Source: Lachnospiraceae bacterium (lineage in GTDB: Bacteria; Bacillota; Clostridia; Lachnospirales; Lachnospiraceae). Taken from it: DNA of 42,801 bases. The notes beneath the pieces were generated by a model that worked only from the letters and a program-made list of their open reading frames with translations, did not search any database and was not told where the DNA came from. This document shows positions 1 to 3,988 of this stretch, one piece after another. Positions within the stretch are counted from its first letter, which is position 1; each line of letters begins with the position of its first letter. Location: assembly GCA_015057615.1 (NCBI GenBank), contig SVEA01000019.1, forward strand, positions 1-42,801. The letters are read 5' to 3'. The translations under genes were made by a program, and so were the position numbers.

Positions 1-438
1 AATTAATTCTGGCAATGTACCTAATAGATAACTATACTGATTTACTGCAAACTGCTGCAGATTTCCATAATCATAAGTTACTGTTCCAGACTGTGAACCT
101 ACAATGATGATATCTTTCCCCGCGATCTCCATATTATGAATTGCATTATTTAAATATGTAATAGTATCATATTCATGGATACTGACCGTACTGTTATACC
201 CCATTGGAAATACATAGTCCATACCAAATAGTAATGCACTTGGTTCTGTACCAATTTGACCTATGTTGTAACCCATTTGAACGAATCGTTTTCTCAGCAT
301 CAATTGTAATGTATATTTCCCTTGCTTTGAACTAGTTCCAAATACACCAACAATCAGTTTAGTCATTCGATATAACTTTCCAAATCGATTCCATGATACA
401 TCAGTTTTATCTACATGCGGATATTGAACTAGTTTCAT
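1..438 (-). CDS. P-loop/DUF1611-like peptide-maturation-type protein (partial, C-terminus off the edge)
   Basis: An open frame of 146 codons reads from an ATG at 438 to the left edge without a stop. The start has AGGAAAAG about 8 bases upstream. The protein opens MKLVQYPHVDK, then has a nucleotide-binding-like segment LIVGVFGTSSKQGKYTLQL at about residues 27-45. Next comes LRKRFVQMGYNIGQIGTEPS, then LFGMDYVFPMGYNS. A hydrophobic strand DIIIVGSQSG follows at about residues 108-117. A Rossmann or P-loop strand followed by a Gly/Lys/Thr turn and a QIGTEP segment recalls DUF1611-type proteins and the clostridial TIGR04066-type peptide maturation proteins found beside radical-SAM peptide systems. 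This is recalled resemblance, not a search result. It sits 14 bases beyond a broken S8 protease and in line with an ABC exporter and a Cys-rich peptide, which supports a peptide-modification locus. The C-terminal part is outside the window, so its function cannot be fixed. Confidence 0.6.
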   Translation of the reverse strand, partial: MKLVQYPHVDKTDVSWNRFGKLYRMTKLIVGVFGTSSKQGKYTLQLMLRKRFVQMGYNIGQIGTEPSALLFGMDYVFPMGYNSTVSIHEYDTITYLNNAIHNMEIAGKDIIIVGSQSGTVTYDYGNLQQFAVNQYSYLLGTLPELI

Positions 439-452
439 TTGATCTTTTCCTA

Positions 453-740
453 CTATATAATTAAATTCTTTTCATCTACTCCGTTCTCAATCCCAATCAA
501 CTTTATATTTATTATTTTAATATTGCTAATCTTTCTTAGTATATTATATACAGCTGTTCCATGCCCATATTAGTCTTCAAAGTCCTTTCTAATTTTGCCA
601 TTTTCACATGAAAAACCCAGTATTGGCTCATAACTAGCTCTTTTTTTATCAATATGAACTCCACTGTCAATTATTACTGCTGTAACCTTGTCCATATCAA
701 TACTATTTATTTGTTGAAATATTGCGCTATGCAATCTCAC
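453..740 (-). pseudogene. S8 (subtilisin-like) peptidase fragment with an internal stop
   Basis: Reading from a GTG at 740 (AAGGATG just upstream, overlapping the end of the exporter gene) or an ATG at 695, the frame shows the subtilase Asp box VTAVIIDSGV. It then reads IRKDFED, a TAA stop at 570-572, and the His box YGHGTAVYNIL in the same frame. The frame continues through KISNIKIINIKLIGIENG to a TAG at 453-455. D-x-GHGT is the family His-box pattern, so the stop replaces a single residue inside a conserved motif. The part that should carry the catalytic Ser is absent and the next gene starts 14 bases later. So this is an inactivated and truncated protease, unless the stop is a sequencing error or is read through. 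Proteases of this type trim leader peptides in some peptide natural-product systems, which fits the neighbouring exporter and Cys-rich peptide. Confidence 0.7.
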
Positions 741-2511
741 TCACATCCTTATAAAATTCTGCCTGCTTATTATACATTTCATAATATAATGCATCTTGAT
801 TACGCATTAATTCATTATGTGATCCAGTCTGTACGATCTCTCCATTATGAAACACAAATACTACATCACAATATTTTGTAATAGACAATCTGTGAGAAAT
901 AAATACAATACCTCTATTTTGAACATTGTGATTTATAGTATTGTAAATTTCATACTCCATTAATGGATCCAATGCTGAAGTGGGTTCATCAAGAATTAAA
1001 ACTTGGCTATTCTTATACAATGCTTTTGCAATCATAATTTTTTGCTGCTCTCCACCTGATAATTCGAGACCATCGCGTTCAAATTCTTTTGATAAAATCG
1101 TATTCATTTTGTTCGGTAATGAAAATACTTTATTTTTCATATTTACTACATCTAATATTTTTATAACTTTATCCTTATCGCCATTTTCATTCGTCGATAC
1201 ATTTTCAAGAACAGAAAAAGCTTTGATATGGTAATCTTGAAATACCGCTGAAAAGAGGCGAATATATTCTTCATACTTAATCGTATTTATATCAATGCCA
1301 TTTAACAGAATATGCCCCTCTGTAGGCTTATATAGTCGCAAAAGAAGTTTTATAAATGTTGTTTTTCCCGAACCATTTGTTCCTACAATTGATATTTTTT
1401 GATTGCTGCAAAACTTGACATTAATATTTTTCAATACAAATAAATCAACACCGGGATATTTAAAACTAACATTCGAAAATTCAATTGTAAACTCTTGATC
1501 TTCTTTATATGTGAGTCCCTCATGACGAGATTCTTCAGCAAGATTTATTAACGTCATAAGTTCTTCAATATATTTACTATAATTTTTCAGACTTACAACA
1601 CTACCTGAAATATTAATCAAGCAATTAGTTAGCTGACTAATAGATGCAATAAGCATGCTAAATCCACCAATAGTAATCTGTTTGACATAAACCTTATAAG
1701 CCAAATATAAGTACATTCCACCTTCTTGTGCGACATTAAAAATCGTGGTCAATGTATTTAACCGTAAAAACTTAATCGTAATCGTAAATAACTTATGTAA
1801 ATACTCTTTGTTAAACTTGCTATACTTATCTACAAGATAATCGGATTCGCCAAATACACGAATTTCTTTACCATATTTAAAATTTTGCATCAAATTCATT
1901 AAGTAGCTTGATTTTCTTTGATACGGTGCTGCTTCTTTATGCCATGCATAATCATAATTTTGTATCTTTCTATTGCATATTACGTTAATAAATACAACTG
2001 CTAAAATGATACCAATAATCAAAATATTAAGACTTGATAGAACATAAATAAGACCAATCGCAGTTAATATATTAGTAATTGATTGTGCTAAAGAGTAAAA
2101 GATTGACTCACAATACTTGGGATCCTTCGTTCTTTCAAATAAATCAAGAATCTCTGTATTTTCTATTTTATCATAATCAATTGACATCACTTTTTTTCCC
2201 AAGTAAGTGTTGTGTTTACAACTAAATGAATTCCACGTGTTCGTAACACAGGTATATAAGATACGTAATAATAAATTAATTGTCATATTTAGAATAATCA
2301 TAAGAATCGAAATTTTACATACTCGTATCCAAGTTTGATTATTAAGTGGATTCATTGTTAATAAATCAATAATTAGCTTTGGAAAAATAATCATGATAAA
2401 TGGCTTAATTGCTTCAAGTATAATTTGCGGAATTCGAACCAATACATATATTCTCTCTATCTTCCATATATACTTCATTATGAAAATAAAACGCTTAATA
2501 TCTTGCCGCAT
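727..2511 (-). CDS. ABC exporter, fused membrane and ATPase domains
   Basis: This is a half-transporter ABC exporter of 594 residues from the chosen start. The N-terminal 300 residues hold five or six hydrophobic membrane segments. The ATPase domain has Walker A GTNGSGKTT (about residue 377), signature LSGGEQQ (about 484), Walker B VLILDEPTSALD (about 505) and the H-loop FISHRLS (about 539). No N-terminal C39 peptidase domain is present, so leader removal would need a separate protease, such as the broken S8 gene just downstream. An in-frame ATG exists at 2583, but I prefer the ATG at 2511. It has GAAAGGTG five bases upstream, and the longer version would overlap the Cys-rich peptide frame that ends at 2555. 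Export of a small peptide is the likely role, inferred from context. Confidence 0.88.
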   Translation of the reverse strand: MRQDIKRFIFIMKYIWKIERIYVLVRIPQIILEAIKPFIMIIFPKLIIDLLTMNPLNNQTWIRVCKISILMIILNMTINLLLRILYTCVTNTWNSFSCKHNTYLGKKVMSIDYDKIENTEILDLFERTKDPKYCESIFYSLAQSITNILTAIGLIYVLSSLNILIIGIILAVVFINVICNRKIQNYDYAWHKEAAPYQRKSSYLMNLMQNFKYGKEIRVFGESDYLVDKYSKFNKEYLHKLFTITIKFLRLNTLTTIFNVAQEGGMYLYLAYKVYVKQITIGGFSMLIASISQLTNCLINISGSVVSLKNYSKYIEELMTLINLAEESRHEGLTYKEDQEFTIEFSNVSFKYPGVDLFVLKNINVKFCSNQKISIVGTNGSGKTTFIKLLLRLYKPTEGHILLNGIDINTIKYEEYIRLFSAVFQDYHIKAFSVLENVSTNENGDKDKVIKILDVVNMKNKVFSLPNKMNTILSKEFERDGLELSGGEQQKIMIAKALYKNSQVLILDEPTSALDPLMEYEIYNTINHNVQNRGIVFISHRLSITKYCDVVFVFHNGEIVQTGSHNELMRNQDALYYEMYNKQAEFYKDVSEIA

Positions 2512-2554
2512 AAATTCACCTTTCTTCTTAATTCCCACTATAACTTTCTGTATA

Positions 2555-2671
2555 TTAGCAATTATTTCCTGGAGAGCATTCATTACCTAAAGTACAGTTA
2601 TTTCCAAGCTTATTTTCTTCAGCATTCTCTCCCCACTTTTTTCCTTTTGGTAATATATTTTGTTCACCAAT
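2555..2671 (-). CDS. Candidate Cys-rich precursor peptide (start unresolved)
   Basis: Immediately upstream of the exporter, 43 bases before its start, a 38-codon open frame ends with GNNCTLGNECSPGNNC and a TAA. The three Cys are spaced C-X5-C-X5-C and embedded in a repeated G-N/P-G-N pattern, with the last Cys at the C-terminus. Upstream of them is an acidic/Asn-rich stretch, WGENAEENKLG. Such a Cys pattern next to an exporter, a protease and a P-loop maturation-type protein looks like a ribosomally made, modified peptide precursor. The frame has no ATG, GTG or TTG after the upstream stop. Translation could use an ATT, or a one-base change in the A-run near 2640-2650 could join it to a frame beginning MYFKLVNKIYY. 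It may therefore be a broken precursor. I do not recognise the family. Confidence 0.42.
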   Translation of the reverse strand: MGEQNILPKGKKWGENAEENKLGNNCTLGNECSPGNNC

Positions 2672-2886
2672 TTAAAATACATTTTAGAGCAAAAGAACAA
2701 AAATCTATATATTATTTTCTTCGTCGGAAACAAACCTAAATTTTATATAGATGCCTCAAAGAAAATCTATAAAGTTATTAGATCTTTGACCTTGTCTAAA
2801 ACAGGAATTATAATGACTTAAATAATCATAATTTTCTATATTAATCCATTATCGTCATTGCCAGTATTTTCTCTATGTGCTTATAT

Positions 2887-2915
2887 ATTATAGTTCTAAT
2901 TGACATTAATTACAA
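2887..2915 (-). promoter_or_regulatory. Sigma-A type promoter for the peptide/exporter locus
   Basis: Read on the minus strand, TTGTAA (2910-2915) is followed after exactly 17 bases by TATAAT (2887-2892). It points toward the Cys-rich peptide and exporter, leaving a leader of about 210-230 bases. The stretch is very AT-rich, so chance matches are likelier here, but the spacing and the perfect -10 support it. Confidence 0.5.
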
Positions 2916-3082: not shown

Positions 3083-3111
3083 AAAAAAGGAGCGGGATTC
3101 AGAGGAATCCC
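3083..3111 (-). terminator. Rho-independent terminator
   Basis: On the minus strand a perfect 7-bp stem GGGATTC/GAATCCC (3105-3111 and 3094-3100) with a 4-base loop is followed by GCTCC and six T (3083-3088). It separates the remnant region at 3160-3640 from the exporter locus. Confidence 0.6.
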
Positions 3112-3177
3112 ACCCTAACTATTGACACAGAGCCCTCAAAAAAGATCCCCTGTTTCTAAGAGTTTCTTTTAAATATG

Positions 3178-3420
3178 CTTTATTATTTGGTCATAAGTTG
3201 GTCGTAAATCTTGACCTTTATTTTCTCAAACCCGCATAAATACAGGGTATAATTTACATGTTCTTCCTCATCTGGATTAATAAAATGTCTGTTTTGCCAT
3301 AAATGACTGGTCATCATTTTCGAAAGATTCTCCTTCATTATAGTCATAACACATATCAGCAAAAAATTCAGTAAATACCAAAACCTCTTGATTTACATCT
3401 CCGGTTTTACGTTTACCTTT
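3178..3420 (-). pseudogene. Unidentified decayed coding remnant
   Basis: Two overlapping minus-strand frames read like protein but have no credible start. One contains VLVFTEFFADMCYDYNEGE and stops near 3285. The other contains HFINPDEEEHVNY then TLYLCGFEKIKVKIYDQL and stops near 3180. The change of frame around 3290-3330 suggests a gene broken by an indel. I do not recognise either part. The stretch between this and the peptide locus (2916-3080) is AT-rich and I see no gene in it. Confidence 0.3.
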
Positions 3421-3598
3421 CGGGCTTAAGTTTGATATGTAACCTTACCCACCTAATCGCCTTATCAAGTTCCTGTTCGTGTCATAAGAATATAGCTCTC
3501 CAAGTCATTACAGACACCAACTTGTGGTTCACTACACTTGGCGGTAAATACCCATGGCTAGACTTTCACTAGCTAGATTAGTGCATTGCCTGCCACAC
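3410..3598 (-). ncRNA. Possible group II intron RNA remnant (5' part)
   Basis: On the minus strand the stretch begins GTGTG at 3598, matching the GUGYG 5' end of group II introns. It runs through TAGCTAGTGAAAGTCTAGCC, then CCGCCAAGTGTAGTGAACC, then a segment ending ACACGAACAGGAAC. This GTGAAAGT stem-loop and the Gly/Ala-rich non-coding layout resemble domain I of bacterial group II introns as I remember them. I find no domain V and no reverse transcriptase frame, so it would be a truncated remnant. The assignment rests on pattern memory only. Confidence 0.35.
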
Positions 3599-3711
3599 AA
3601 AAAAAGGACTGATTATCTACCTACCAATCCTAATGAAAGTAATATTTAAATGCTTAAATAAAGTTCAAATCTCCAGCAATCTGCAATTGATTTTAATATA
3701 ATATTCTAGGT

Positions 3712-3784
3712 GATTTGCGTAAACTTCGCCAAAGATTGTTGTACGCAAATTCTGTTTTGCGTATACGCAAATTTTACGCAAATC
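3712..3784. repeat. Nested inverted repeats of an 8-mer (iteron- or operator-like)
   Basis: The octamer TTTGCGTA or its complement TACGCAAA occurs five times in 70 bases, at 3714-3721, 3742-3749, 3756-3763, 3764-3771 and 3775-3782. The two central copies form the perfect 16-bp palindrome TTTGCGTATACGCAAA. The outer copies lie in a perfect 12-bp inverted repeat GATTTGCGTAAA (3712-3723) / TTTACGCAAATC (3773-3784). No gene overlaps it. Such an arrangement suits a protein-binding site (regulator operator, replication or recombination site of a mobile element), but no partner protein is visible nearby. Confidence 0.7.
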
Positions 3785-3836
3785 GAGTCAAGTTTCCATA
3801 TCGATTCACGAGGTTTTACGAGGTTTTCAAATCAAA

Positions 3837-3898
3837 ACCAAAAAGGCTCTAAAATTCTGTAAACAGCATATATGCAATCGTTACAGGCTTTTAGAGCC
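3837..3898 (-). terminator. Terminator-like nested hairpin after tsf
   Basis: A perfect 10-bp outer stem GGCTCTAAAA/TTTTAGAGCC (3889-3898 and 3845-3854 read on the minus strand) is followed on the minus strand by TTTTTGG. Inside are an inner CTGTAA/TTACAG pair and the palindrome GCATATATGC (3866-3875). It lies about 90 bases past the tsf stop and would end the rpsB-tsf transcript. The 34-base interior is long for an intrinsic terminator. Confidence 0.6.
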
Positions 3899-3988
3899 TC
3901 CTATAAAGTCATTATTAAATTATACTAAATTAACCTTACTGACCCATTTGTTTCGCAATCTTCTCAAAAAAGTTGCTTTTAGGCTTTC

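Follow-up and report, generated by a model that had tools for sequence, protein, structure and literature searches.

A probable relic of a TIGR04066-type radical-SAM peptide locus beside tsf in a Lachnospiraceae genome

The stretch analysed here, which we call the window, is 42,801 nucleotides long and is the entire contig SVEA01000019.1 of the Lachnospiraceae bacterium assembly GCA_015057615.1 (G000:C172 in our numbering). Near its left end, beside tsf, lies a minus-strand group of frames that is truncated at position 1. It consists of a broken gene for a subtilisin-like (S8) protease joined to a TIGR04066 P-loop protein, an ATP-binding cassette (ABC) exporter, and a short frame with a cysteine-rich tail. 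We read this group as the likely remains of a peptide locus of a known kind. The features are as follows.

1..438, minus strand: fragment of a TIGR04066/DUF1611-like P-loop protein (GVFGTSSKQGK) that runs off the contig end; approximately residues 372-517 of the 611-amino-acid Anaeromicropila fusion protein
456..740, minus strand: S8 (subtilisin) pieces from the N-terminal part of that gene, with IIDSG and GHGTAV blocks; TAA at 570-572 splits them and TAG at 453-455 ends them
727..2583, minus strand: open ABC exporter frame of 618 amino acids, with no C39 peptidase domain
2555..2671, minus strand: Cys-tailed peptide frame IGEQNILPKGKKWGENAEENKLGNNCTLGNECSPGNNC, with the hexad repeat [L/P]GNxC[T/S] and no ATG, GTG or TTG in frame
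2587..2625, minus strand: alternative short frame MLKKISLEITVL after GGGGAGAGA, a possible second reading of the precursor start to which the profile test gives no support
2887..2915, minus strand: promoter-like site TTGTAA-17-TATAAT in an AT-rich stretch, not clearly above chance
3086..3134, no strand assigned: solo ISL3-like insertion-sequence end that separates the relic from DNA common with relatives downstream of tsf
tsf-side stretch of about 1 kb: no recognised genes; on the minus strand, reading leftward from tsf, it is followed by the promoter-like site, peptide frame, exporter, S8 pieces and P-loop piece

The two leftmost features are fragments of a single coding sequence. The S8 pieces at 573-740 and 456-569 share one frame and correspond to about residues 20-97 of the Anaeromicropila fusion. 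The next homologous stretch starts at about residue 372 in a different frame; approximately 275 codons (residues ~98-371) have been lost, including the Ser region and the start of the TIGR04066 part. The Asp and His blocks of an S8 protease are thus present in the window and the Ser region is gone. No piece of fusion residues 518-611 was found on any contig of the same assembly at E ≤ 1. The P-loop piece is 58% identical to its Anaeromicropila counterpart (L051/L091) and gives 25.9 bits with PF07755 (DUF1611). With TIGR04066 it gives 56.9 bits (E 1.7e-15), a match to a domain fragment only and below the cut-off of 200; the intact Anaeromicropila fusion likewise falls below that cut-off, at 81.6 bits. 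A sequence-only reading of this DNA had described an S8 protease wreck next to a P-loop/DUF1611-like protein. Both pieces are there, but they are not two genes: because relatives carry both domains in one protein, we take them to be one broken fused gene.

Of the relic pieces found, the exporter alone is still whole, and it lacks a C39 protease, as had been read from the sequence. Its likelier start is the ATG at 2511, which follows AAAGGTG and would give a protein of about 594 amino acids. The frame matches ABC_tran at 107.4 bits, and its transmembrane match reaches 14.6 bits, under the cut-off of 28. In a tree of 67 exporters, the window sequence falls in a five-member group (support 99/91) with the exporter of L091, both exporters of L112 and one from the same-genus genome G212, which places it in the ABC exporter type of TIGR04066 peptide-maturation loci. 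L091 and L112 are S8-TIGR04066 loci, and G212 has such a locus (L149) on another contig than its grouped exporter. Branches within the group are long (0.96 for the window's end branch), and the highest identity is 37%.

The Cys-tailed peptide frame lies where the nearest relatives hold their precursor, and its tail, LGNNCTLGNECSPGNNC, is a non-random hexad repeat. The pattern C-X5-C-X5-C sits exactly at the stop, as the sequence-only reading had noted, but the frame, read from stop to stop at 2558-2671 on the minus strand, begins with ATT and contains no usual start codon. The pattern at a stop occurs once in the window and in 0/3000 dinucleotide shuffles of the 248-base region. Likewise, no shuffle out of 3000 reaches the six-residue self-match (7 matches) seen in the last 17 residues; 3 of 1433 frame tails in the window, the peptide frame included, do reach it. 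The tail of a second window frame, PEDETDPEDETDPDPVE, holds a six-residue acidic repeat.

The expectation that homologues of the peptide would lie upstream of related exporters held in part. No sequence homologue of the frame emerged, but precursors do lie upstream of the exporters in the nearest relatives (L090-L094), and one L114 precursor also carries C-X5-C-X5-C. Searches of plasmids with tblastn gave no match at E ≤ 5. Across 397 family genomes (cut at E ≤ 0.05) and 34 genus genomes (cut at E ≤ 0.5), the same query gave, apart from the window itself, four weak matches with E from 0.0014 to 0.13. None looks like a precursor; two of them lie over coding frames, which we take to be a carboxylase and a transporter, the latter seen whole. 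TIGR04065, the 34-position CLI_3235 precursor model, matched nothing in the window's own genome at E ≤ 1, nor the peptide frame at E ≤ 5. Against a profile of 29 precursors from relatives, the peptide frame scores -2.1 bits, compared with 28.7-49.3 bits for members and 6.7-37.7 bits for members when left out; its ten-residue tail GNECSPGNNC alone scores 3.6 bits. The best alignment score of the peptide to these precursors is equalled by 47 of 500 permuted peptides, and by 108 of 500 when the cysteines are held fixed. Its similarity to them is therefore not significant, and the family link rests on position.

A precursor read across a frame change, from MLKKISLEITVL into GNECSPGNNC, would show the VxL-xxEC motif of the relatives. 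As first posed it scores 0.7 bits against the profile. The best reading of the region scores 1.3 bits, a value that 1100 of 2000 shuffles also attain, as do 141 of 676 other window segments; with one frame change placed anywhere the score rises to no more than 3.3 bits, which 94 of 300 shuffles likewise reach. We rejected this reading as unsupported, and the uninterrupted frame is favoured because the hexad repeat lies in it. The sigma-A-like promoter claimed upstream did not hold up either: the site at 2915-2887 on the minus strand scores 10/12 and is one of 13 such matches, where shuffles give 8.1 ± 2.6.

The insertion-sequence end at 3086-3134 recurs on three other contigs of the genome, with one copy beside a DDE_Tnp_ISL3 transposase. 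From about 3138 to tsf, pieces of the DNA are common, in order, with the genus members G202 and G214, and beyond that border these two genomes hold genes without similarity to the present set. The flank comparison and the ISL3-like border therefore suggest that the relic is an accessory insertion at a variable site. The stretch 3138-3960, downstream of tsf, is repeat-rich and common with genus members, often in many pieces; the pieces 3375-3608 and 3840-3932 recur widely.

No modifying enzyme had been visible in the sequence-only reading, and in the window we likewise found no maturase or carrier piece at E ≤ 0.1. A maturase and carrier of this kind are also not recognisable elsewhere in the assembly, which is 99% complete. 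TIGR04068 and TIGR04463 gave no match above their cut-offs in the genome, the stretch beyond the left contig end being outside the assembly. These cut-offs are a weak test, because the Anaeromicropila maturase (L051) fails them too, with 97.6 and 199.3 bits. Both models also give sub-cut-off matches in 13 of 14 control genomes. The best matches in the window's own genome are both to contig C210 (134.3 bits with TIGR04068 and 119.7 bits with TIGR04463), and the remainder reach at most 61.9 bits. The C210 radical S-adenosylmethionine (SAM) protein was rejected as the partner maturase since it adjoins a six-Cys peptide (G000:C210:6756-8671, L002), with which it presumably forms the common SCIFF pair. 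Candidates on C37, C73, C92 and C93 were rejected on their matches of 61.9 bits or less. Two other places in the genome deserve mention. At G000:C93:3865-7290 (L062), a 402-amino-acid S8-type protein (PF00082, no TIGR04066 match) lies near ABC transporter genes, together with a 79-amino-acid frame matching the TIGR04068 N-terminus at 28.5 bits; this is perhaps a second peptide-locus relic. At G000:C73:1-4700 (L063), two radical-SAM frames with weak TIGR04068 matches flank a transporter-like gene, and a third similar frame, judged by eye, is cut by the contig start; this is possibly another peptide or cofactor locus.

To collect relatives of the gene set, seven TIGR04066 pieces were aligned, six of which came from fusions (L049-L051, L054, L056, L058), and GTDB genomes were scanned with the alignment; this gave 28 loci. 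The fusion protein, of 503-652 amino acids, matches Peptidase_S8 and DUF1611 in all 28, and QhpE and TIGR04066 as well; that every locus is fused is partly due to selection, because six query rows were fusions and six of the 28 loci are the same records. In the fusion alignment Ser207 and the P-loop residues are invariant, and Asp26 and His61 almost so; Asp26, His61 and Ser207 correspond to the known catalytic residues of S8 proteases. Stand-alone TIGR04066 frames of about 350-380 amino acids also exist, so the fusion is a subtype, and it was seen in Lachnospiraceae, Oscillospiraceae, Lutispora, Paenibacillus and Sutcliffiella. Counting the window's own genome, 16 of 200 family genomes have TIGR04066 matches (6 above cut-off), as have 6 of 34 genus genomes (3 above cut-off).

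The TIGR04065, TIGR04066 and TIGR04068 leads of the sequence-only reading proved right. A radical-SAM-like protein is present in 23 of the 28 loci (in 19 of them one of 435-495 amino acids), and a small acyl-carrier protein in 20, all of them among those 23. The five loci without a radical-SAM-like protein are L094 and L095, which are cut by contig ends, and L090, L100 and L105, where none is in view. The order peptide, ABC, fusion, which is that of the window, occurs in L090-L094, the five best-scoring rows of the scan, and in the same-genus locus L149; in L091, L092, L093 and L149 the maturase and carrier lie upstream of the peptide. Exporters come after the fusion in 18 of the 28 loci and ahead of the whole set in L110 and L116, and none is labelled in L096, L098 and L113. 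The genus holds a second damaged copy in G208 (L150), whose maturase is split over two frames and whose fusion is shortened.

A short frame near the fusion, with a lysine-rich start, an LY-xxE block and mostly cysteines at its end, was found in 24 of the 28 loci, and L149 also holds such a precursor (LMLYSTEGNSC...). The shared motif is partly a product of selection, because frames were picked by position and motif; the different peptides of L117 and the repeat copies in L106 were left out, and the first L092 peptide is in the 29-row profile and not in the 28-row alignment (A3). L100 and L105 showed no precursor frame, and neither did L095, which is truncated by its contig end. Of 28 precursors from relatives, TIGR04065 matches 3 at E ≤ 0.1, with a best value of 8.5e-4, and a Pfam search of these precursors gave nothing convincing. 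One of the three L114 precursors (L114:2164-2271) is the one that ends in C-X5-C-X5-C, as does the window frame.

We consider it likely that positions 1-2671, minus strand, are what is left of a radical-SAM peptide locus of the TIGR04066/CLI_3235 type, a decayed copy at a variable site. This kind of locus is already known, and the window copy is a decayed member of it, broken rather than a new working system. The proposal of an undescribed peptide locus therefore stands in so far as the DNA derives from a peptide-natural-product locus, but it is not supported as an undescribed, working one: a similar gene set has been reported to be expressed and active (PMC10731318), and the processing gene of the window is destroyed. 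Upstream of the peptide there is neither a maturase nor a carrier piece, in the genome we recognise no maturase of this kind, the fusion gene is disrupted and has no Ser region, and the peptide frame lacks a usual start, so that no finished peptide is to be expected. The Cys-tailed frame is probably the decayed remains of a real precursor core, and we infer that the open exporter has either not yet decayed or been retained for another use, such as self-protection.

Several observations weigh against decay of such a locus. Decay alone would not lead one to expect a fully open exporter; the repeat in the peptide tail is clean; the contig end falls inside the locus, and a maturase further left, absent from the assembly, is possible; and at least six relatives (L098, L106, L107, L109, L111, L113) carry a radical-SAM-like protein downstream of the fusion. 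L090, L100 and L105, with no radical-SAM gene in view, count on the same side, as does the gene order, since that of the window is a minority one (5/28, against 18/28 with exporters after the fusion). The same-genus L149 fusion (G212:C145) itself reads as two overlapping frames of 103 and 503 amino acids, which may reflect a break in that gene or a fault of assembly. Finally, the peptide is without significant similarity to the relatives' precursors, and the Cys spacing at three or fewer residues from a stop turned up in nine short frames, mostly chance-like, on both strands of 53 related loci (955,392 bases).

The first four of these points also speak for a locus that works, its breaks being assembly or sequencing errors and its maturase and carrier lying beyond the left contig end. 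However, some 275 missing codons, the Ser region among them, plus two in-frame stops and a shift of frame go beyond what point errors can explain, and the assembly offers no recognisable maturase of this kind, so that we think this very improbable. If instead the Cys-tailed frame were a chance product and the real precursor had been lost together with the maturase, then the lack of a usual start codon, the profile score of -2.1 bits, the 47 of 500 permuted peptides, the absence of anything precursor-like among the four weak matches in 397 and 34 genomes, and the occurrence of the Cys spacing by chance in relatives' DNA would all be accounted for. The stop-anchored cysteines and the hexad repeat, each in 0/3000 shuffles, and a position that matches the precursor site of L090-L094 and L149 make this unlikely. 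Less easily set aside is selection on the exporter alone, as a self-protection or multidrug pump that has outlasted the peptide genes: it is the only open gene of the set, and its broad type is common in the genus, with matches at E ≤ 1e-60 in 20 of 34 genomes (the window's own included). Recent decay, however, accounts for the open frame equally well, and we regard such selection as possible but doubtful. A decayed peptide locus remains our preferred reading.

Relatives apparently use the gene set to produce a small modified Cys-rich peptide, process it and export it. The nearest relatives carry, in this order, a radical-SAM/SPASM maturase and carrier (where present), a short lysine-rich Cys-tailed precursor, one or two ABC exporters and the fusion of S8 protease and P-loop (TIGR04066) domains; elsewhere among the relatives these parts are arranged differently. 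In the likely ancestral mechanism the maturase would install cross-links in the Cys tail, the fusion would cut off the lysine-rich leader with its S8 domain, and an exporter without C39 would secrete the product. The relic taken alone is an ordinary case of decay of an accessory peptide locus. The wider interest lies in the fusion subtype and its precursor group, which merit separate study: with the protease and the enigmatic TIGR04066 protein in one polypeptide, the function of TIGR04066 becomes directly testable. Tentatively, and with rather less confidence than we have in the relic itself, we suggest that the fusion may define an undescribed branch in which one protein couples leader cleavage to nucleotide binding and which has its own precursor group (short lysine-rich leader, LYxxE, Cys tail), largely missed by current models, and that the window may keep a relic of this branch with a distinct hexad-repeat (GNxC) core.

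The closest comparison is with the S8-TIGR04066 fusion loci themselves (Anaeromicropila populeti L091; L090, L092-L094; L149), which have in common with the window the order peptide-ABC-fusion, a TIGR04066 identity of up to 58% and, in L091, an exporter that groups with that of the window. They differ in that most have an open fusion, a maturase and a carrier, and in that their precursors carry lysine-rich leaders and LYxxE, both absent from the window frame. The S8 domain of all 28 fusions matches the QhpE subtilisin-like protease (NCBIfam NF049966) at E ≤ 0.001, whereas the one fusion whose score was seen, at 108.8 bits, lies under the curated cut-off of 165.

Among the matches listed by a literature search, none names an S8-TIGR04066 fusion, and TIGR04066 or CLI_3235 is named in PMC10731318 only. 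The part of that report cited here describes the SacP23 locus of Paenibacillus polymyxa #23, which is of the CLI_3235 type and gave antimicrobial activity as an eight-gene clone in B. subtilis. It includes a Cys-rich precursor, an ABC transporter with six predicted transmembrane helices, a TIGR04068 maturase, a TIGR04066 protein, a TIGR04069 acyl-carrier-related protein and a subtilisin-like protease (PMC10731318); the maturase and carrier are not seen in the window. The SacP23 authors proposed an immunity role for the TIGR04066 protein (PMC10731318), whereas its fusion to the protease points to a part in leader processing rather than immunity. For SacP23, as far as that part of the report goes, two genes are listed for the TIGR04066 protein and the protease, one for each (PMC10731318); in the relatives described here they are fused, and in the window the fused gene is broken.

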